Of a stretch of 42,488 nucleotides of DNA, positions 20,363 to 42,488 are shown one piece after another. The notes under the pieces were generated by a model. It ran no database searches. It worked only from the letters and a program-made list of their open reading frames with translations, and was not told where the DNA came from. How positions within the stretch are numbered: position 1 is the stretch's first letter; the number at the start of each line of letters is the position of its first letter. A program made the translations under genes and the position numbers. The DNA is from Candidatus Nealsoniibacteriota bacterium (GTDB lineage Bacteria > Patescibacteriota > Minisyncoccia > Minisyncoccales > PWPS01): contig PWKK01000026.1 of the NCBI GenBank assembly GCA_003560665.1, forward strand, positions 1-42,488, in the 5' to 3' direction.

Positions 20363-22090
20363 CTATTCTTTAATTAAAGAATTTACAAATTTCCTCGTAA
20401 AGCTCCCTACATATCCCGTTCCCCGTGTAAGACCGAGAGGATCAAGGATTTCTTCCCGATGATGCTCTTGAAAACGAGTTACCGCTTGCTTTGTTAGATA
20501 ATAAAAATTTCCGGTGATTATCCCTTCCGGATAAATATCTTTCCCCCGGCTTGCCAAAAATCGTTGCAACTCTTTAACATCTTTCGAGTTTTCCATTCCG
20601 TAATAAAGGTCTTTTTCAAAAGAATACGGCTTTAATTTTTCTTTTCCCACAAAAGCATATAATCTTTCTACTTCTTTTCTGATAACAGCCAACCTTTCGC
20701 GAAGTTCTTGAAGTTCTTTTTCTCGAATTTCTTTTTCTCTTTCTCCGTCCCTTACCTCCGCCTTCCACTGAAAGTAAATACCTCTCTCTGTCCCATTAAA
20801 TCCACTTACCTTTTCCTGAAGAGAGGGAATAATTACTATCGACTCGTATCGAGAGTTAAACTCCTCTATTACAACTTCTCCCTTCCCTTTTTTGTCGATA
20901 TCAATAAATTTAACTTTGCAATCTCCACTCTTTTCACAAAGAACATAAGGAACAACAAATCTTTCTTCGGATTGAAATTCTAAATAAAGGTTTCCCGATC
21001 CTCCGACAATTCGATACCAGTTTCCCGCCCAATTTTTTGTTTGGTAATCAACCGTAAGGGGGCCTTCGTTTCTTGAGGCAAGAAAAACAGTGGCAGGAGA
21101 AACCGTTAGCTTTCCTAAATCTTCATTTTTATAACAGTAATACTCTCCGAGAGAACAGTCATTTAAATAAACAGCTACTGTCCAATCGGTGAAGATTTCC
21201 GCAAAACTTTTTTCGAATCCGTTTTTTTCAAGTGCATAGTCAATGCTAGGAATTCCAACCAATTTACTTCTTAAAGAGTCTTCAAGAACTGCTTCTCCGT
21301 AATGATCTAACAGGTACTGTCCAAAAGTGTTAACTACTCCGTAATCGGCAGCTTGTTCTGTCCACTCGGTAAGAGAGATATCCGGGTCACGAAGAAAAGA
21401 GTTTACTCTTCTTGAAAGATTACTCTTCTCATAATCTTCGTCATAGCCTAGGATAGAAATAATCATCTCTGCGCGAAGTTCGTTGAGCCATATTTCTTCG
21501 TTTACCCCAAACTCCCTGTTCTTCTCGTTAAAAGTAACAAGGTGTATATATTCGTGCGCCAAGTGTCCGGGAAGAACATCTCTTTTCAAGGAATCGGCAT
21601 TTAAATAGAGAATATTTCTTTCGTTAGACCGCGAGTACTGGTATCTCGAATACTGGTCTCCCGACCTGAAGTAGCCACCCGCACCCGGTGTCATCGGATG
21701 GAAAAGGACCGATATTCTGTCCCCTCTCCCAACCACATCGTTTCTCGAAATGTCGCCAAAGTTTTCCTTGATGTGGGGATAAATATTTTCTTTAAATTCA
21801 TCTCCGAGAGTGTCGACAGCCTTTTTTTTCTCTTCCTTTTCTTCTTCGGACAAATCTTCCCACCACTCCTTATCAATATAAAAATAGACTTGTTCCGTAG
21901 TCGCTAGTAACTTTGCATCAGAAGTGCTTTCACCACGTAAGTCATACGCGCTCTCGATAAAAAAACTTTCATCGCCTTCAGCAAAGATTACATTCGAGGA
22001 GAGCGGCGTTAAAAAAAACGCTGCAACAAAGAGAAAAATTCCGATTTTTGTTTTTACTGTCATTTTTTGTAAAAATCTATTTGTTAGCAA
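20363..22090 (-). CDS. Secreted HEYxH zinc metallopeptidase (M30-like) with C-terminal peptidoglycan-binding domain
   Basis: Signal peptide; LPGHLAHEYIHLVTFNEKNREFG..EIWLNELRAEMII; C-terminal VKELQRFLASRGKDIYPEGIITGNFYYLTKQAVTRFQEHHREEILDPLGLTRGTGYVGSFTRKFVNSL. Confidence 0.8.
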   Translation of the reverse strand: MLTNRFLQKMTVKTKIGIFLFVAAFFLTPLSSNVIFAEGDESFFIESAYDLRGESTSDAKLLATTEQVYFYIDKEWWEDLSEEEKEEKKKAVDTLGDEFKENIYPHIKENFGDISRNDVVGRGDRISVLFHPMTPGAGGYFRSGDQYSRYQYSRSNERNILYLNADSLKRDVLPGHLAHEYIHLVTFNEKNREFGVNEEIWLNELRAEMIISILGYDEDYEKSNLSRRVNSFLRDPDISLTEWTEQAADYGVVNTFGQYLLDHYGEAVLEDSLRSKLVGIPSIDYALEKNGFEKSFAEIFTDWTVAVYLNDCSLGEYYCYKNEDLGKLTVSPATVFLASRNEGPLTVDYQTKNWAGNWYRIVGGSGNLYLEFQSEERFVVPYVLCEKSGDCKVKFIDIDKKGKGEVVIEEFNSRYESIVIIPSLQEKVSGFNGTERGIYFQWKAEVRDGEREKEIREKELQELRERLAVIRKEVERLYAFVGKEKLKPYSFEKDLYYGMENSKDVKELQRFLASRGKDIYPEGIITGNFYYLTKQAVTRFQEHHREEILDPLGLTRGTGYVGSFTRKFVNSLIKE

Positions 22091-29733: not shown

Positions 29734-30435
29734 CTAATCAAGTATGTTTATTTTTTCTCTTAGCTCTCTTACCATTTGCACAACCTCGTTAAATCTTTCT
29801 CTGATACTTTCCATATCTTTTTCTCCGACTTCTCTGATGGTTACTCCCCTCTGCAACACTTCGTTTAACTTAGTTCTCGTTTGCGAATCAAGAACTCCTG
29901 TTGCCGACAAGCCGTGTTTTCTTTGAAAGTTGATCAACGCTTGCTTCGTGTTCGGACCAAAGTAGTTTGTTTCGTTCCCCGGAGAGCCTCCACCGCTTGT
30001 TGCAACCCTGGTTTCCGGATCAGTGTTAAGTGCCCTTTGCAAATAACGAACGGCTTCTCCCGTTGCCCTCTCTCTTAACTCATAACTGAAAGAAAAATCT
30101 GCCGGAACTCCTTTTGTTTGAATGGTTCTTACTACTTCTTCGGGAACGGCAAGCACATCCTTGGAAATCTCCTGAAGTTTTTCCATTGCAACAGTAATCC
30201 CCTCTCTTACTTCTTTCCTCGCTACTTCTCTCTCCTTCGCATCTTCCTCGATTTCTTCTTGATGGACAACAGTGCTTACGGTGTCTCTCACTTTTTCGAT
30301 CGTCAACTCTTTTTTATTTTTCTCGTCAAGAGCTTCTCCAAAGACGGGAGCAAGGGCAGAAAAAGCAATAGCAACGGCCATCAAAACAACAATTACCACC
30401 TTTATTGTGTTGATCATCTGTTTTCTTTTTTTCAT
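29734..30435 (-). CDS. Secreted peptidoglycan-binding domain protein
   Basis: N-terminal TM/signal; GEAVRYLQRALNTDPETRVATSGGGSPGNETNYFGPNTKQALINFQRKHGLSATGVLDSQTRTKLNEVL. Confidence 0.88.
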   Translation of the reverse strand: MKKRKQMINTIKVVIVVLMAVAIAFSALAPVFGEALDEKNKKELTIEKVRDTVSTVVHQEEIEEDAKEREVARKEVREGITVAMEKLQEISKDVLAVPEEVVRTIQTKGVPADFSFSYELRERATGEAVRYLQRALNTDPETRVATSGGGSPGNETNYFGPNTKQALINFQRKHGLSATGVLDSQTRTKLNEVLQRGVTIREVGEKDMESIRERFNEVVQMVRELREKINILD

Positions 30436-30454: not shown

Positions 30455-32023
30455 TTATAAGTCGTAATCCATTTCTTCTAGAATCTTTTCTTTTTCCGGG
30501 TGCGGTTGTGTTCCTCCCTGCCAGTTGTAAAACCAGCTGTCTATATACTCTCCGCTAAAATCACTTTCATCTCCGTCTATAACCTGAGTGATTACATAGC
30601 GATAGATGGTATAGAAGCCAAGCCCTGTGTCGGTAAAAGTCTTTTCATCGCTCGAACCAATCTTTGTATACGGTCCTTCAGTTCCTTCTCCTCGATAAAT
30701 ATAATATCCTTCCACACCTGTTTGGTCGGTTTCCCACGATAGCGTTAACTCTCCGAGATCTGTCGCTTCTGCCTCTATTGCAAACGGAGTCGGAGACCAG
30801 TCCATCGTCACTTTCAGTTCTCTACTGTGTCCACTCTCCTCTCCGTCAACTGTTTGTGTGACTGTAAGATAGTAAGTTTCCATATACTCAAGTCCTCTGA
30901 CAATTCCGCTCATTTCTGTGGTATCTCCATAAACTGTGCGCGGACCTCCGGATTGATCTGCTATATAAGCAGTAAAGTAATCTGCATCTCTGTCGCTTTT
31001 CCACGTCAGTCTTACTTCTCCGTAAGCAATAATCGCTCCACGAAGATCTTTTGGTGCATCGGCAGCTCCTTCATCCTCTTCTTCCTTTTCTTCCTCTTCT
31101 TCTTTCTCTTCATCCTCTTCTTCCTCTTCTTCTTTCTCCCCCTCTTCTTTGGTGTAACAAGTTACAATATCAAGCAAGGGAGAAGAGGTAAACCTTCCAT
31201 TTCTTAGATAGTAAGTGTAAGAACTGTCAGGAGAAAGCCCTGTATCGTTGATTCTTTCCGAATGACTGGACTGAGCCCATGTTTCAATTCTCGTACTTCC
31301 TCTAAAAAGAGATACATCTGATCCGTCGATAAAGCTGTAGTTCAATCTAATAGAGTTCTCTGTAGAGCTGTAACAGCTCAAGTTTCCGTGAGAATCTTCT
31401 TCTCCTTCTTTATCTTCTTCCAACTCCTCACACTCCTCTATTTTTCTGCGTAAATCTTGAATATCTTTAATGATTTGTATTATCCTCTCTTTAATTTCTT
31501 CCTTTCTCTCGGGGTCAACTACTTCGATAATTATTTTTCCGTCTAATATCTTGTTGAGTTTCTTTTGTGTTTGTATCGCCACAATACCCGTCGGTTCGGT
31601 AATCCCCCAAGGGTGCAGTATCTCGGTCGCATACTTTTGTTGAAATTTAATAACCGCATTTAGAGTAATATTTCCAAAACGTTTAACTTCTTCTCCGGGA
31701 GAACCTACTCCGTACTCACTAAGCCTTGTATCGGGATCGGCGTTCAAAATTATCTGCATATATTTTATCTCGATTCCATAGTCTTCGTATCGATAGGAAC
31801 TAACCTCCGGGAACCTGAAGTCTTCGGGAATTCTAGGAAAGGTGGCTGCCACCTTCTCTCCTTCAAGAAGAGCTTCCATGTCTTCGGAAACCTCTTGCAC
31901 TCTATCTCTAATATCTCTTAGCTCTTCTCTAATTTCTTCTTCCGAACATCCTCCGTAAACCGGTGCAACAAAGGCAAAAAGAAGAAAAGCCGCTAATCCC
32001 CCGAGAAATATTTTTTTAATCAT
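30455..32023 (-). CDS. Secreted PG-binding protein with acidic linker and FN3-like domains
   Basis: Signal MIKKIFLGGLAAFLLFAFVAPVYG; IKYMQIILNADPDTRLSEYGVGSPGEEVKRFGNITLNAVIKFQQKYATEILHPWGITEPTG; two FN3-like repeats (APKDLRGAIIAYGEVRLTWK; PTPFAIEAEATDLGELTLSWE). Confidence 0.88.
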   Translation of the reverse strand: MIKKIFLGGLAAFLLFAFVAPVYGGCSEEEIREELRDIRDRVQEVSEDMEALLEGEKVAATFPRIPEDFRFPEVSSYRYEDYGIEIKYMQIILNADPDTRLSEYGVGSPGEEVKRFGNITLNAVIKFQQKYATEILHPWGITEPTGIVAIQTQKKLNKILDGKIIIEVVDPERKEEIKERIIQIIKDIQDLRRKIEECEELEEDKEGEEDSHGNLSCYSSTENSIRLNYSFIDGSDVSLFRGSTRIETWAQSSHSERINDTGLSPDSSYTYYLRNGRFTSSPLLDIVTCYTKEEGEKEEEEEEDEEKEEEEEKEEEDEGAADAPKDLRGAIIAYGEVRLTWKSDRDADYFTAYIADQSGGPRTVYGDTTEMSGIVRGLEYMETYYLTVTQTVDGEESGHSRELKVTMDWSPTPFAIEAEATDLGELTLSWETDQTGVEGYYIYRGEGTEGPYTKIGSSDEKTFTDTGLGFYTIYRYVITQVIDGDESDFSGEYIDSWFYNWQGGTQPHPEKEKILEEMDYDL

Positions 32024-32061: not shown

Positions 32062-33246
32062 TTAATACATTTTAATACATCTTACGGAAATAGCGTTTTC
32101 TTTGGAAAGAAGAGTGCGGTTAATTCCTGTACGTCCGGAATACAAGCTTCTGCTCCAAACAGATGTCCTCAGATCGCTGGAAGTCCAAAAACTGGTTCCA
32201 TCCTCGAGACCGTTAAAAGAACCGTCCATTTCTCTTCCTCCTGCAGGAAGAGCGGAAAATCCCGATAAGTTGCTTCCGTCCCAACCCGATTGAGATTTCA
32301 ACTCATCTCCCTCTCCACTCCCTCTCCATCCACCTCCGTCCGCTTCTGTCTGACTTATTCCGAGATGCTTCTCTAACTCTTTAAAGTCAGCATCACTCGG
32401 CAGCGTCCATCTTGAAGGACAGATATCTTTTGCGGTTTCAAAACTATACAACCTTCCGTAATTGTCGCAGTTTGCCGTATTGTTTTCATAGCACCAGCTT
32501 CCATCGGTCGCATAGTTTAAATTTTCCGCCATCCAACACTGTGATCCGATCTCTATCATATTGTATCTCTGGTTGTCTCTGATATCTATAAAGCTCGTTT
32601 GTCCAGCACAAGAATCTGCAGTTGTTGAGGGGTCGGGGTCAGGCTCTGGATCAGGGTCGGGGTCTGGATCAGGGTCGGGGTCTGGATCAGGGTCGGGTTC
32701 TGGATCGGGTTCTGGTGGTGGAGGAGAAGGAAGACTAGGCGGAGAAGAAGGAACTATCGTAAACTCTCCCCTCAAAATGGCGTTGAGCTTTGCTCTCGTA
32801 GAACTTCCTACAAACCCGGTAGGATAAGAAAGTCCGACCGGTTTTAAAACTTCATTGGCGTACTTTTGTTGGAATCTTTTTGCCGCATTAAATGTCGCTG
32901 GACCGAAAAACTCTGTTTCATTCCCCGGGGATCCCGCTCCGAACTCTGACACCTTTGTCGCCGTATCCTTGTTAAACACAATCTGCAAATATTTAACATC
33001 AGACCCCCTTGAACCTCTACTGAGGTTTCGATTAAAAGTAAACCACTCCGGAATTCCTTCCGTTTTCGTTTCCGTTTCCGGTACTTCTTCTTCGTCTTCC
33101 TCTTCTAGTAAATCCAACAACTTAACAAGAGCTTTTTCCAGATCTTCAAGTTCCTCGTAGATACTGCTTTTTTGTCCTAAAGCGCCACTTACTCCGAAAA
33201 GAAAAACTCCTGCTATCAGTACTCCTAGAAATATTTTTTTAATCAT
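32062..33246 (-). CDS. Secreted PG-binding protein with (DP)n linker and C-terminal FISUMP domain
   Basis: Signal MIKKIFLGVLIAGVFLFGVSGALG; PG-binding domain; DPDPDP linker; DIRDNQRYNMIEIGSQCWMAENLNYATDGSWCYENNTANCDNYGRLYSFETAKDICPSRWTLPSDADFKEL...SVRCIK. Start 33246 favoured over 33300. Confidence 0.88.
   Translation of the reverse strand: MIKKIFLGVLIAGVFLFGVSGALGQKSSIYEELEDLEKALVKLLDLLEEEDEEEVPETETKTEGIPEWFTFNRNLSRGSRGSDVKYLQIVFNKDTATKVSEFGAGSPGNETEFFGPATFNAAKRFQQKYANEVLKPVGLSYPTGFVGSSTRAKLNAILRGEFTIVPSSPPSLPSPPPPEPDPEPDPDPDPDPDPDPDPDPEPDPDPSTTADSCAGQTSFIDIRDNQRYNMIEIGSQCWMAENLNYATDGSWCYENNTANCDNYGRLYSFETAKDICPSRWTLPSDADFKELEKHLGISQTEADGGGWRGSGEGDELKSQSGWDGSNLSGFSALPAGGREMDGSFNGLEDGTSFWTSSDLRTSVWSRSLYSGRTGINRTLLSKENAISVRCIKMY
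32628..32715. repeat. In-frame 18-bp-period tandem repeat encoding (DP)n
   Basis: Repeated 'ggatcagggtcggggtct' units. Confidence 0.85.
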
Positions 33247-33339
33247 TTTTTTGTTGATTCTATCTTCCTGCTTTTTATTATAACAAGAAAGAAAAAACAA
33301 TCAACATCCATCTGAGAAGGCCAGATCCCTCCGGTAGAG

Positions 33340-33974: not shown

Positions 33975-35966
33975 TTACAGGGATTGCTGAGAAAGGTAAA
34001 TTCTTCCTGTCCTTAAAATCTCGATAAAGTCATACTCGGAAGCGGTCCAGGTAAAGTCGTTTCCTTCTTCGTCTTCCCACTCGATGGATTCTATTGCCAA
34101 TCTTACCCATCCGTAGTTGGTGTTATCGGCGTTATAAACACCGAGCACCTCCAGCTCCTTGGTTCTGCCCTTGGTTATCGTCGATTCGCTGGTAGTACCG
34201 ATCCATGATCCGTCATAGACATCGTTGCCACCAAGCTCTACTACTACATCCCAATGAGCGTCGGTAAAGGTAATGCCCGTAAGAGTAATATCTCCTTCGA
34301 TGGCCTTTACATCAACAACAAGGTAAGCGTTAGCTCTGGTTCTATCTTTGTCGGCTTCGATGCTGCTATCTGTCATCTTAAGCTCGGGGAAAGAAGGGTA
34401 GAGTGCCTGATAGTCTCCTTGAAGATCTCCCTTGAGGTCTATTTCTTTATCGCTGTCGTAAGCGTAAGCAATCTTCTCGTTCTCCTCGTCTAAAATCTCC
34501 GCTTTTATCTTGGCACCGATTCTATCTCCGTCAGTGTCCATATTCATTCCAAAGACGTCAATAACAACGGAAAAGACAACTTCTTTTCCCGCATCGATAT
34601 CCATCTCAACATCAAAGACTACGTAGCCTTCTTTATCTTCTGTTCCACTCTTAATGGTCACTGTCTGAACATCAATCAAGGTGTTTCCTTGGTAGAGAAG
34701 CACGTCTTCAAATATATCTTCAAGTTTGTGATCTTCTCCCTCCAGCTCAACCCTCAGTTTCTCAAGTTCAATGTCGGAATCTTTAACGGAAAGTTTAAAG
34801 TTTAAAAGTTTTACTTCCGTGTTATCATCCTCGTCAACCAGTACCACATTTTCCTTGGGGGAGTCGTTATCTTTGATAGTAAGAACTCCTGTGGTTTCAT
34901 GGTCAAGCTCAAAGCTCCTCCCGCTCACACTGCTTGCAAATACCGAAATACCCGCACCGTCAACGCCTCTTATGGCATTAGAGCCGGTAGGTCCTACGGT
35001 GTAGCTTGTGTTAGTGAAAGTGCTCTTATCGGCAGCTGTAACGGTTACGACAAAATCTTCGTATCCGTCGGCAGGAACCTCGATTTCCAGTCCGCTAAAG
35101 CGGATGTACTTGTCATCCCTTCCTACCGTGTCGCGGTTAATGGCCCTCTCACCTACCACATCTCCGTCAACTTTCAAATACATCTTATCGATATCTCCCC
35201 TGAACTCAGTCATACTTCCTCCGGTAACATAGATATCGATTCTCTGGACATCAATGTCGGAGTCTTCAGCTTCCATCCTGAACATGGCTACATCCTTATT
35301 CTCATTGGGCCTAACACTAACATTTCTGATGTCCGACCTAAGACTTACACTAAGATCCCCTTCTTCTCCGGGAGCTCTGTAAAGAGCATCAACTCTTGCG
35401 GAAAGATTCTTTACGGCATCAGCAATTTCTTTCAACGCCTCCATGATAGTGTTGTCCACCGGGGGCCTTGTTTCCGAAACTCCTTTTTGCAAGATACTGT
35501 TTAATTTAGCTCTTGTTTGTGTTCCCACGAAACCCGTAGGAGCATTAAGCCCGATAGGGTTCAATATTTCAGAAGCATACTTGCTTTGAAACTTGTTAAC
35601 AGCTTCTCTGGTAATGGGGCCGAAATACTCTGTTTCGTTTCCCGGAGATCCCGGGCCGGTCTGAGCCAATCTCGTATCCGGATTGGCGTTAAGAACAATC
35701 TGCAAATACTTTACAGCCATCCCCCTTGAGCCCTGACTGAGGTTCTGATTGAACATGAAGTTAGCGGGTATCCCCTCTATGGATACTGTTTCTCCGGGGG
35801 TCACGTCAGTTGTGGTTCCCAGCTGCTCGGCAATTTTTTGTAGCATTGCTTCCAAAGCAGCCATTTCTTCGCGTATATCGCTCTCTTCTCCTTGTACTTG
35901 TACTGCGCCAAGCGCGACAAAACAGAGAGAAAGAGCCATTATACCAACAATTATTTTCTTTTTCAT
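33975..35966 (-). CDS. Secreted PG-binding protein with long beta-rich ectodomain (S-layer/adhesin-like)
   Basis: Signal MKKKIIVGIMALSLCFVALGAVQVQG; VKYLQIVLNANPDTRLAQTGPGSPGNETEYFGPITREAVNKFQSKYASEILNPIGLNAPTGFVGTQTRAKLN; then ~450-aa beta-rich region. Confidence 0.85.
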   Translation of the reverse strand: MKKKIIVGIMALSLCFVALGAVQVQGEESDIREEMAALEAMLQKIAEQLGTTTDVTPGETVSIEGIPANFMFNQNLSQGSRGMAVKYLQIVLNANPDTRLAQTGPGSPGNETEYFGPITREAVNKFQSKYASEILNPIGLNAPTGFVGTQTRAKLNSILQKGVSETRPPVDNTIMEALKEIADAVKNLSARVDALYRAPGEEGDLSVSLRSDIRNVSVRPNENKDVAMFRMEAEDSDIDVQRIDIYVTGGSMTEFRGDIDKMYLKVDGDVVGERAINRDTVGRDDKYIRFSGLEIEVPADGYEDFVVTVTAADKSTFTNTSYTVGPTGSNAIRGVDGAGISVFASSVSGRSFELDHETTGVLTIKDNDSPKENVVLVDEDDNTEVKLLNFKLSVKDSDIELEKLRVELEGEDHKLEDIFEDVLLYQGNTLIDVQTVTIKSGTEDKEGYVVFDVEMDIDAGKEVVFSVVIDVFGMNMDTDGDRIGAKIKAEILDEENEKIAYAYDSDKEIDLKGDLQGDYQALYPSFPELKMTDSSIEADKDRTRANAYLVVDVKAIEGDITLTGITFTDAHWDVVVELGGNDVYDGSWIGTTSESTITKGRTKELEVLGVYNADNTNYGWVRLAIESIEWEDEEGNDFTWTASEYDFIEILRTGRIYLSQQSL

Positions 35967-36875: not shown

Positions 36876-37961
36876 TTAAAATATCTTCGCCAAAGAGAGT
36901 ACGTAGTGGCTTGTAAGAAGCGCGGAAAAGACAACCAGCAAGACAACCATTTCGTTGACAATCATAAATGTAAGATAAACTCGACGCATAAGCAAAAGCT
37001 TTAGGGCAAAGGAAACAAGAAAAACTGTTGCCATTATTAACAGAAGATATCCCAGCGACCTTCCCGGAGATGAAGTGACTCTACCCCAAAAGGAAATGTA
37101 CTCTAATTCTTCCTTGCTTTCCCCTATCACCTTGCTTGGCTTTCCGACAACGAGAAAAGGTTTTTCGTCTATTTTTTCGATAAGTGCAAACGACTCTTTT
37201 TTCTCGGATTGGTCTTCCTCTTCGGGTATATCTTTTTCCTCCTCCACTACTTCTTCTTTCTCCGCTACTTTTTCCGGGTCCTCTTTTTTTTCTTCTTCTC
37301 CTAAGATTCTTTCTTCTTCGTCGCTCTCTGTCTGTTGGACAACTTCAATCGGTTCTTGAATAGTAACAACGGGGCTCGTTTCCATTCTTGTTCCAAAAAG
37401 CTGCACGACAAAAATCGCTTCTCTCTCTTTGTACTCTCCTTCTGCCGTTGCAATCCCTATCTCTTCAAACTTCTCGTTTACAATATTATCCCTGTGTGTG
37501 GGAGACTCCATCCATGCTTTATCCACTTGTTCTGCCTCGGTAAAGTTAACCGCTAAGTTTTCTCCGGCATAACGGTAGTTGTAATCGACAAAATCAAACC
37601 AGTACCACGGAGTAACTCCTTCCGGAGAGGTGTGTGCAAAATATCCTTTGCTCGCCATGTCATTCGCCTTTTTTTGAGCTGCTTCTGTAAGCAAGGGGCT
37701 AACCCTCAACTCCCTTAGGTCCTCATCATCTCTTCTGATATTGGTCAGTTCTACTAAAACATCGGGAGCGATACTGGCAAAAAAGTGTTCCAAAGATATC
37801 TTTCCGACAAAGTTGGCAATAAAAAGGAACTCTATGAAAACAACCACCAGAAAAACAAGAAGCATGTTTCTTGCCTTTACAAAGCAGGGCTTCCTCTTTT
37901 TGTTACAGGCTTTCAAATACCCCTTTAAAAGCGAAAAAAGCTTTCTTATCTTTTTTTTCAT
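36876..37961 (-). CDS. CAP-domain (SCP/PR1-like) membrane protein
   Basis: LTNIRRDDEDLRELRVSPLLTEAAQKKANDMASKGYFAHTSPEGVTPWYWFDFVDYNYRYAGENLAVNFTEAEQVDKAWMESPTHRDNIVNEKFEEIGIA; N- and C-terminal TM helices. Confidence 0.9.
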   Translation of the reverse strand: MKKKIRKLFSLLKGYLKACNKKRKPCFVKARNMLLVFLVVVFIEFLFIANFVGKISLEHFFASIAPDVLVELTNIRRDDEDLRELRVSPLLTEAAQKKANDMASKGYFAHTSPEGVTPWYWFDFVDYNYRYAGENLAVNFTEAEQVDKAWMESPTHRDNIVNEKFEEIGIATAEGEYKEREAIFVVQLFGTRMETSPVVTIQEPIEVVQQTESDEEERILGEEEKKEDPEKVAEKEEVVEEEKDIPEEEDQSEKKESFALIEKIDEKPFLVVGKPSKVIGESKEELEYISFWGRVTSSPGRSLGYLLLIMATVFLVSFALKLLLMRRVYLTFMIVNEMVVLLVVFSALLTSHYVLSLAKIF

Positions 37962-38026: not shown

Positions 38027-38046
38027 CCCCGCCCTTTGGGGCGGGG
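38027..38046 (-). terminator. Intrinsic terminator
   Basis: CCCCGCCC-CAAA-GGGCGGGG followed by TTCGTTTTTT on the minus strand. Confidence 0.85.
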
Positions 38047-38085: not shown

Positions 38086-38334
38086 TTAATTGTTAAAGCG
38101 TTCTCTGATTCGCTCTTGTATCTCTTCTGCTCTTTCTCTTACTCCCTCAAGAGTAGTTTTTGCTTCTTCTCCTGCACGCTCCATTAGTCCTTCGATGGTT
38201 TCTTTCATCCTTTCCATTCTGATATTTTGCAGCGCCAACTCTCTCATTTCTCTTGCTCTTTGAAGTCTTTCTTGCTTCTCTTCAAGTCTGTTATTTATTT
38301 TTTCCTCAACAATCCCTGCTCTTTCTTGCACCAT
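38086..38334 (-). CDS. Coiled-coil ORF (distal part of an in-frame split gene, or separate small gene)
   Basis: 82 aa; same frame as the 38362-38601 ORF, separated by TAA and 9 sense codons. Confidence 0.5.
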   Translation of the reverse strand: MVQERAGIVEEKINNRLEEKQERLQRAREMRELALQNIRMERMKETIEGLMERAGEEAKTTLEGVRERAEEIQERIRERFNN

Positions 38335-38361
38335 TAAAAGCGCTTCTCTTTGAGGAGCATC

Positions 38362-38601
38362 TTACTCTATCTCTCCGAGAAGACCGGAAATAACTTCTTT
38401 CATTCCCCTTAGTCTATTCTCTTGTTCTTTTAACTCTCCTACTTCTTCTTCAAGTTTTTCGGCATCTTCTGCTGTTTCCTCTTCATTATATTCAGAATCT
38501 TCTTCATTTGATTCTTCAGCGACTACGGAAAAACCACCCATGAGAAGAACTGTTAAAAGAAAAAGGAATGTTCCACAAAGAAATATTAGCTTTTTATTCA
38601 T
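38362..38601 (-). CDS. Secreted acidic coiled-coil ORF with signal peptide
   Basis: MNKKLIFLCGTFLFLLTVLLMGGFSVVAEESNEED...; 79 aa. Confidence 0.6.
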   Translation of the reverse strand: MNKKLIFLCGTFLFLLTVLLMGGFSVVAEESNEEDSEYNEEETAEDAEKLEEEVGELKEQENRLRGMKEVISGLLGEIE

Positions 38602-38749
38602 AATTATATTTATATCAACAATTTTTTATCGACCTTTTGATTTTTTCTTCCGATTAAAGAAGTATTTAATACAAAACAATCCACTTCTTTTTTCTCATTA
38701 CTTTTTATTATTATAGAACGATTGTAGATAAATGCAAATTATAATAACA

Positions 38750-38798: not shown

Positions 38799-41700
38799 TT
38801 ATGCAACAGGCTTAAAGATGTAAAAGAGAGTTCCTCCGAGCATTGCAAGCGCAGTAACAAGTACCACTATAGCGGTCGTTCTGCCCTCTTCCTCTTCTTC
38901 TTCCTCTTCTTCTTCAACTACTTCCTCACCTACATCTTCATCTACAACATCTTCATCTTCTTCTTCAACGTCTTCTACAAAATCTTCTTCCGTCCAATCT
39001 CTTCTTTCGTCTTCTCCTCCCAACACTTCTCCATCCGCACTCGCGGTAACTACCTCGGGAGAGAAAAGTCTTCTCATGTGCCCACTGAGATCGGGCATCG
39101 GAATACCAAGGAGAGGACACTTAATCATATTAATCCATCTCTTGGTAGTAAGATAAACATATCCTGTCGGCTCGTCTATTCCCCACGGCTCCAAAACCTC
39201 ATCGGAGTACTCTTCTTGGAAGCGGTTAACAGCTCTTTCTGTTTCTTTTCCGAAAAATCCGTCCACCGTAAGGCTTTCTCCCATGTGTTCGTTGAGAAAT
39301 ATTTGGAGCTTTCTTACTTCATCGGGGTTGTTGTTTTGTCCGTATCGAAGATGTTCAAAGAGATACTTTTCACAATCTTCATCTACCTCTTCTTCTTCTC
39401 TTTCGTCTCCTTCACCGAGAACATCTCCTTCCGGAGCAGCCGAAGGGATGAATGCAAAACTTTGACCAGAAGAAGATCTTCCTCTTGTGCCAGAGTCTTG
39501 TTCCCATATAGCATAGACGGTAATATCACCGGTAATCTCTTTGGATGAATCAAAAGATTCGCCCTCTCCTTCCGGAGCAGTGTTCCATCCCTTAAAGTTA
39601 TATCCTTCTTTAGTGGGTTCTTTCGGCATACCATCTTCTCCTAAAGAATTACCATGACCGGCACTTTTTGTAACCACATCACCTCTGTCTTTGAATGTTA
39701 CTGTGTGCAAAACTTCTTCTAAAACATTGAACGCTACACAGATATACTCCTCGTTCGCCTCCATTTCATCGACGTATTCGTAGTTGTCGTAATTGAACCC
39801 GTCCGCATGGCAAATTAGCTCCGCGCTTTCCGAGGAAACGCCGTTTCCAGGATGATCGCTGAACGGAAGATATCCGTCTTTCAAAACTTCTCTAACCCAA
39901 ATCTTTCTACCTTCTTCCAAGTTAACCGTGGCTAGTGCAGGGTCTTTTTCCAGTGCACTATTTGCAAAGGAGTGCCAATTTTCTCCGTCAGCTAAACAGG
40001 TATGGTCACCTTTTTCTTTCTCTACCTGACCATCATATCCCCACTCAAACTGCCACTCCTCTTCTGTAAATCTACACGCTCCTTCCGAATCATTTACATA
40101 ATCGATTACACTTTGCTCTGTAAGGTATACTGTCGGTGAAGGATATTCTCTGTCCTTAACCCAGTTTGGGAGATCCCCTTCATCATTACAAATTACCTTG
40201 TGTGCTTTTATGGTCGCTGTATCCGTTTCGGGCTCTCCTATGTTTACAATGGTAAATTCTTCCTGTCCTTCAGTAACTTCAACTTCGCCCAACCCGCTTT
40301 CGTTTTCCCAGCCCATTTTGTTTTCCTCTTCTAGCAAATAATATCCATGGGGCACAGAAGAAAATGTAACACAACCGTCACTTTCTGTTATTCCTTGGTA
40401 TTCTATTGGGAAAATTTCAAAAACGAAACTGTCGTCGTTGTAGTTGTCATCATAATAATTGTCCCAAATGGAAATATTAACCTCTTCTCCGTCGTTTTCG
40501 TGGTAATAAATGGTTGTATAGGTGTGATAATCTTCATCGAGAGGACCCCAATACACCGCTTCTCCATTAATCCATGCCATTAGACCATCAGATCCGCTAG
40601 AAAGATCAAATCCGCTATACCAACAGTCACAACCATCAGGAATATTTGCCGGCCTATAAGAGTAGCCTGCATCAGCAATCATTGTGCTTGAACCGTAACG
40701 ATAAGTTCCGCTCACCTTAATTAAGTAATAACCTTCGTCTAAATTAGAAGAATCTGTTCCTTTATCGTCCATAACATTTATTGCTGTCGGGCCGTAAACG
40801 CTTTCGCTTGATACCAAAGCTACATGCCATCCCTCCAGTTTGTTTTCTTGTCCGTCTGTTTTACAGACAGTTACATCTGTTGGTTCGTAGCAAGTATCTC
40901 TTTCAATGTCTAATCTGTACAAAAGTCCTGCTGGGTTGTCTTTCCATGGACCAACTGCCTGAGGATGATTTTCTACTTTAAATTTAATAACATTCCCCGT
41001 GTCTTTTAAGCAGCTTTCAGGAACACCATAGGTTTCTTTTTCAGAATAATTATCTTCAGCTCGGCTTCCTTTTTCAAAGCAGTCATTAATCCACACCTTG
41101 TAGGAATTGTCTGCGGCCACCTGCAAAGCAGCAGAAGAGGCTGAACCGTAAACATTAAATTCTTTTTTGAATATATAGGTTGCCTCGTTTTCTGAGGTAT
41201 CATTGTCTTCAGGTTCTACTTTCCATATCCATTCTGCAATTCCATTAATAGCTGCTTTCCATGCACCATGTATTCTTTCAAGAATAGTGGCCTTTTTCAA
41301 AAACTCTCCCTCTGTATCGTATACTCTATCTTCTTCATTACTCACAACAACAATATCCTCGCACTCCTTCTCTTCTTCAGAAACATTGAATGCTACACAG
41401 TAGTAGTACTTTCCTTTTTCTGCATTTTCTACGTAATCGTAGTTATCATACTTCCATCCATCGGCATGACAGATAAGTTCTGCGCTAACCATTTTTTCTC
41501 CGGTGTCCCATCCTTCCTGTGGATAAGCGAAGGGAAGATATCCATCTTGTAAAACTTCTCTTACCCATATCTTATTGGATGGGTTTAAGTCCATAATTGT
41601 TGCTATTGCCGGATTACAACCTTCTCCAGTGACAGTGTCAAAGTCATGCCAACCGCTTTTGTCAGCATATTCCGCTTTTCCAAAATGGTCACCATCAACT

Positions 41701-42488
41701 TTTTGTGCATAGCCATCATATCCCCATTCGAATTCCCAATTAGACTCAAACCAACAACCTTCGTGATCATCAACAAATTTAACTATGTCTTCTTTTTGAA
41801 GAGGATTGCCGGAATAGTAAGGATCATCTGCATCTCTTACCCAATTCGGAAGATAATCTTCATCTTCGCAAACTACTTTGTGTGCCTTAAGAGTTACAAC
41901 CGGCACATTAAATGCTACACAGGTATACTCTTCTCCTTCTTCCGGACTGTCAACTCTGTCATAATTGTCATACTTGTATCCATCTATATGACAAAGCATT
42001 TCTGCACTCACCGAGGTATTTCCGTCCTCACTGTCACTGAAGGGCAAGTAACCCTGCTTTAGTACCTCTCTTACCCAAAAATGATTCACTCCTTCTTTAT
42101 AGGGAAGCGTTACGGTTGCTCTCCCGTCTTCATCAGTAGGCCCAAACGTCGTCCAAGTATCATCACCTTCCCCGAAGTGGTTTCCGGGCATTTTAGTAGC
42201 ATTTTCATCTCCCCATTGAAAATACCAATCCTTTACAAACTCACAACTTGTTCCTTCAATTCTATCTTTAATCTTTTCTTTTGTTAATTCGCTTCCTTCT
42301 TTGAAAGGATCATTTTCTTCTCTCGCCCAGTTAGGTAAATCGGATTCATCTTCACAAATTACTTTATAGGCGTTGATGGTAATCTCTTTCTTTTCTCTGT
42401 TTACTATAGTGAATTCATTGTTTTCTCCATCAACTGTAACATCGCCTAAACCACTAACATTTTCCCAACCATCTTGAAGTGTTTCACT
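38799..42488 (-). CDS. Large repeat-containing surface adhesin; SpaA/Cna-like, InlB-B-like and PG-binding modules; C-terminal TM (5' end beyond window)
   Basis: Frame stays open past the listed start at 42191 to the right edge (SETLQDGWENVSGLGDVTVDGENNEFTIVNREKKEITINAYKVICEDESDLPNW...). Contains KVxCxDExxLPNW repeats, VTFKDRGDVV...PTKEGYNFKGWNTAPEGEG...ITVYAIW (InlB B-repeat-like), and VRKLQIFLNEHMGESLTVDGFFGKETERAVNRFQEEYSDEVLEPWGIDEPTGYV. Confidence 0.88.
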   Translation of the reverse strand, partial: SETLQDGWENVSGLGDVTVDGENNEFTIVNREKKEITINAYKVICEDESDLPNWAREENDPFKEGSELTKEKIKDRIEGTSCEFVKDWYFQWGDENATKMPGNHFGEGDDTWTTFGPTDEDGRATVTLPYKEGVNHFWVREVLKQGYLPFSDSEDGNTSVSAEMLCHIDGYKYDNYDRVDSPEEGEEYTCVAFNVPVVTLKAHKVVCEDEDYLPNWVRDADDPYYSGNPLQKEDIVKFVDDHEGCWFESNWEFEWGYDGYAQKVDGDHFGKAEYADKSGWHDFDTVTGEGCNPAIATIMDLNPSNKIWVREVLQDGYLPFAYPQEGWDTGEKMVSAELICHADGWKYDNYDYVENAEKGKYYYCVAFNVSEEEKECEDIVVVSNEEDRVYDTEGEFLKKATILERIHGAWKAAINGIAEWIWKVEPEDNDTSENEATYIFKKEFNVYGSASSAALQVAADNSYKVWINDCFEKGSRAEDNYSEKETYGVPESCLKDTGNVIKFKVENHPQAVGPWKDNPAGLLYRLDIERDTCYEPTDVTVCKTDGQENKLEGWHVALVSSESVYGPTAINVMDDKGTDSSNLDEGYYLIKVSGTYRYGSSTMIADAGYSYRPANIPDGCDCWYSGFDLSSGSDGLMAWINGEAVYWGPLDEDYHTYTTIYYHENDGEEVNISIWDNYYDDNYNDDSFVFEIFPIEYQGITESDGCVTFSSVPHGYYLLEEENKMGWENESGLGEVEVTEGQEEFTIVNIGEPETDTATIKAHKVICNDEGDLPNWVKDREYPSPTVYLTEQSVIDYVNDSEGACRFTEEEWQFEWGYDGQVEKEKGDHTCLADGENWHSFANSALEKDPALATVNLEEGRKIWVREVLKDGYLPFSDHPGNGVSSESAELICHADGFNYDNYEYVDEMEANEEYICVAFNVLEEVLHTVTFKDRGDVVTKSAGHGNSLGEDGMPKEPTKEGYNFKGWNTAPEGEGESFDSSKEITGDITVYAIWEQDSGTRGRSSSGQSFAFIPSAAPEGDVLGEGDEREEEEVDEDCEKYLFEHLRYGQNNNPDEVRKLQIFLNEHMGESLTVDGFFGKETERAVNRFQEEYSDEVLEPWGIDEPTGYVYLTTKRWINMIKCPLLGIPMPDLSGHMRRLFSPEVVTASADGEVLGGEDERRDWTEEDFVEDVEEEDEDVVDEDVGEEVVEEEEEEEEEEGRTTAIVVLVTALAMLGGTLFYIFKPVA

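Follow-up and report, generated by a model that had tools for sequence, protein, structure and literature searches.

A single in-frame TAA most likely makes a young pseudogene of a secreted helical-repeat gene in a Candidatus Nealsoniibacteriota bacterium

Introduction

Ordinary bacterial pseudogenes made by point nonsense mutation carry a single-base lesion in an otherwise intact frame of a dispensable accessory gene. Here we describe a gene from a Candidatus Nealsoniibacteriota bacterium that resembles them in each of these respects and shows no notable difference from them. Our literature search found no papers on Patescibacteria pseudogenes with nonsense mutations or on readthrough in the CPR. 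Nealsonbacteria are reported to be symbionts of the methanogen Methanothrix (in work cited in PMC10936435), and given that report the surface proteins of the group are of some interest.

The closest counterpart of the gene lies in a congener, Candidatus Nealsonbacteria isolate B1Sed10_223R1 (genome G004, contig 14, PUMQ01000019.1), which is probably metagenome-derived. Like the gene studied here, this orthologue combines a signal peptide with a two-repeat helical domain and sits between a CAP gene on one flank and the gene for a large repeat surface protein on the other; unlike it, the orthologue contains no internal stops. More distant counterparts are the C-terminal domains of large surface proteins (G010 contig 8, G002 contig 11, G013 contig 3, G004 contig 14 and G001 contig 63). 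These share the tandem pair of helical units, but there the domain is fused to long repeat ectodomains, usually via a glycine-rich or acidic linker.

Results

The window, meaning the whole stretch of DNA that was analysed, spans 42,488 nucleotides (contig PWKK01000026.1). The features at and around the interrupted gene are as follows.

36876..37961, minus strand: CAP-domain protein (Pfam CAP, E 4e-16), syntenic anchor; its orthologue lies beside the intact gene in the sister species
38027..38046, minus strand: hairpin followed by a T tail, resembling an intrinsic terminator and lying 3' of the gene
38086..38601, minus strand: the interrupted gene, 171 codons and a final stop with one internal TAA, predicted to encode a secreted helical protein of two repeats
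38086..38334, minus strand: ORF 2, 82 aa, remainder of the long second helix and the second helical repeat
38335..38361, minus strand: nine sense codons, DAPQREALL, between the TAA and the next ATG, from translation and alignment
38362..38364, minus strand: premature TAA, in the column of a Glu codon of the sister species in the codon alignment
38362..38601, minus strand: ORF 1, 79 aa, signal peptide, acidic linker and first helix (helix from the orthologue model)
38603..38632, minus strand: promoter-like site 5' of the gene, a consensus match alone (10/12 bases) and not evidence of function
38799..42191, minus strand: syntenic anchor, a large secreted repeat protein whose domains include List_Bact_rpt and peptidoglycan-binding ones; G004 contig 14 carries its orthologue

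Read on the minus strand from 38601 to 38086, the gene translates in a single frame as MNKKLIFLCGTFLFLLTVLLMGGFSVVAEES...GLLGEIE*DAPQREALLMVQERAGIVEEKINNRLEEK...RERFNN*, where the first asterisk is the only internal stop (38364-38362). The preliminary description had placed this stop, its two ORFs of 79 and 82 aa and the translation around it correctly. Past the TAA, 91 codons hold no other stop, a property shared by only 0.11% of mononucleotide shuffles of the same stretch; because so few shuffles are stop-free and, decisively, because the whole frame aligns end to end with the intact protein of the sister species, the open frame beyond the stop is, on composition and alignment, not a product of chance. 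Between the two halves, no terminator-like hairpin was found on the same strand, and an Rfam search of the window returned no match.

ORF 1 begins with a signal peptide whose cleavage site, read by eye, is of the SVVA/EES type. It had also been claimed that the second half possesses neither a signal peptide nor a clear Shine–Dalgarno (SD) sequence. The former is the case. The latter is not diagnostic, since 22 of the 28 genes in the window have no SD-like motif within 20 nt (six have one), and such a motif is absent from ORF 1 too; we therefore rejected it as an argument against a second start.

A six-frame search of 60 related genomes recovered one full-length match, at 32574-32074 on the minus strand of G004 contig 14, with 56% identity over residues 1-171. 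This orthologue is an uninterrupted protein of 167 aa at the syntenic position, the kind of intact protein of about 170 aa that the preliminary description had proposed looking for, and it has Glu in the column of the TAA. Relative to it, the tail of the window gene differs in length at one place, in frame, where G004 has five more codons, and it shows no frameshift and no second stop; ORF 2 shares 53% identity with the C-terminal part of the orthologue. The segment DAPQREAL is identical in both species and, because it is located between the TAA and the ATG of ORF 2, belongs to neither called ORF. Two independent genes in relatives would have spoken for a different history; in G004 there is one ORF, conserved through the gap. 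This comparison gives good support to a single ancestral gene that one in-frame TAA has interrupted. The direction of the change is polarised by the one close orthologue together with distant domain homologues.

The gene is present as a single copy in its own genome, and among the related genomes searched no stand-alone full-length copy was found outside the source genome and G004. Scanning genome_contigs with the single protein yielded no relative, and the same scan with a two-sequence alignment recovered the sister species; a scan of viral_contigs found no relative.

The preliminary description had seen one continuous coiled coil. The single frame stands, and its content is rather a signal peptide followed by an acidic linker and a pair of related helical repeats. 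Searching with a two-row profile extended the matches to more distant proteins of the same taxonomic family (on G010 contig 8, G002 contig 11 and G013 contig 3), in each of which the region forms the C-terminal domain of a larger protein whose ectodomain is long. Against heptad-preserving shuffles, their local alignments score higher by 11-15 SD (standard deviations) when the query is the G004 protein and by 6-12 SD when it is the window protein; the similarity is thus more than coiled-coil composition. When each protein is aligned half against half, the score exceeds all 1000 heptad-preserving shuffles in G004, the window and G002; the signal is weaker in G010 and G013, where 7 and 9 of 1000 shuffles reach it. 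By these alignments the domain is composed of two related units. Additional two-repeat copies on G004 contig 14 and G001 contig 63 are uninterrupted, and every two-unit copy found outside the window is open across the stop position. Apparent single-unit secreted proteins, from weak profile matches, occur on G006 contig 12 and G002 contig 24.

An AlphaFold2 single-sequence model of the G004 protein (mean pLDDT 78) has helices at residues 38-68, 74-134 and 138-166. Glu71, the residue aligned to the TAA, is predicted to lie in the loop between the first two. A PDB fold search gave no match at E <= 0.001, and Pfam and NCBIfam held no model above the curated cut-off, with sub-threshold coiled-coil and spectrin-like matches only; the weak BAR and spectrin matches were rejected as a family assignment, being generic helical-bundle similarity. 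A useful by-product of this work is a helical domain of two repeats for which Pfam and NCBIfam apparently have no model. It occurs either as a stand-alone secreted protein or at the C terminus of large surface proteins, and we note both forms within one taxonomic family of the Paceibacteria.

In the pairwise comparison with G004, dN/dS is 0.25 before the stop and 0.21 after it, values that are rough given a dS of about 1.4-1.5, near saturation, and no relaxation is visible. Given similar dN/dS in the two parts, no frameshift and no second stop, either the stop is young relative to the species split or the tail is still used. The missing relaxation after the stop is as expected if the lesion is recent, and a young stop is the simpler reading of these alignments than a tail still in use. 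As no further decay is visible, the truncated product may retain function. When the genes of G004 contig 14 that have a same-strand counterpart in the window were compared with those counterparts, and interruptions were counted in the window only, an internal stop was found in 1 of 23, this gene alone.

Discussion

We consider it probable that the TAA is a real and recent nonsense mutation in a dispensable gene of a surface locus, which is also the first and best fitting of the four causes originally listed. The ancestral locus would have held one gene for an exported protein of roughly 170 aa, in which a signal peptide and an acidic linker preceded a domain with two related helical repeats, with a presumed role at the cell surface. 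In this lineage, a single-base substitution would then have created the TAA from a Glu codon located in the loop that joins helices 1 and 2. The product would stop at 79 aa and comprise the signal peptide, the linker and one helix; the second repeat would either be lost or be produced in small amounts, starting at an internal ATG and staying in the cytosol as it lacks a signal peptide. A young pseudogene in a cell-surface locus of variable content is the most likely description of the gene, and the change looks like loss of function of an ordinary kind, not a new control mechanism. Its consequence is mostly one of bookkeeping, in that automatic annotation lists two hypothetical proteins for one former gene.

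The lesion comprises one base and is accompanied by no other visible decay, which would also suit a miscalled consensus base, or an allele of a minority strain taken up by the assembler, the gene being intact in most cells. The assembly is fragmented (30 contigs) and, like that of its relative, probably metagenome-derived. Against such an origin, the other compared genes in the window (22 of 22) are uninterrupted, so the error rate is not high, and we regard this explanation as unlikely.

Less likely again is a functional split, in which an exported helix of 79 aa, a cytosolic second repeat of 82 aa produced by reinitiation at the ATG 27 nt past the stop, or both, would still be useful. Reinitiation at that ATG is possible, its product having no signal peptide, and the stop falls within a predicted inter-helix loop; the two halves appear equally constrained relative to G004, and single-repeat secreted relatives apparently exist in G006 and G002. 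Yet the constraint that was measured is mostly ancestral, the relative makes one chain, and DAPQREAL lies outside both ORFs. Moreover, the two halves would end in different compartments, ORF 2 having no signal peptide. That it has become a stable arrangement of two chains, in which an exported peptide of one helix and a second-repeat protein with its own start each play a separate role, strikes us as very improbable.

Programmed readthrough of the stop, or a suppressed or recoded TAA, would restore the full-length protein, and the 91 open codons past the stop are what such a mechanism would leave. Against it, the 41 tRNAs that ARAGORN finds in the genome have ordinary anticodons, none reading UAA, and TAA is the commonest normal stop, ending 21 of the 36 listed ORFs of the window. 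Nor is the stop conserved: G004 has a sense codon there and the domain homologues have no stop. Readthrough, among the causes first suggested, thus appears extremely unlikely. Phase-variable control, also suggested, would suit a predicted exported protein in a surface-gene locus of variable content, but we judge it barely conceivable, as the lesion is a substitution and not a slippage indel, the TAA lies in no simple repeat (the nearest tandem repeat, two copies of 21 bp, is at 38251-38289) and the genome offers no second copy of the gene for recombination.

The reading as a recent nonsense mutation is also favoured by the gene being dispensable in the genus. In G001, a different ORF of 107 aa takes its place between the genes for the surface protein and the CAP protein, and the source genome and G004 were the only ones in which a full-length copy standing alone turned up. 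Judged by the gene content of these genomes, the locus gains and loses surface genes.

Two further differences in content concern G004. Unlike the window, its locus has a gene for a matrixin-like (HExxHxxGxxH) secreted protein of 301 aa, placed between those for the helical and the large surface protein. In addition, an open frame of 1096 aa that bears the two-repeat domain separates the CAP gene of G004 from its next collinear neighbour; at that place the window has an ORF of 155 aa only.

Over a wider part of the window (20363-42191), several genes contain related segments, some of them peptidoglycan-binding-like, and their relatives in G004 cross-match each other. The sequence similarities suggest that this region is an expanded cell-surface gene cluster. 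The genes with related segments are:

20363-22090
29734-30435
30455-32023
32062-33300
33975-35966
38799-42191
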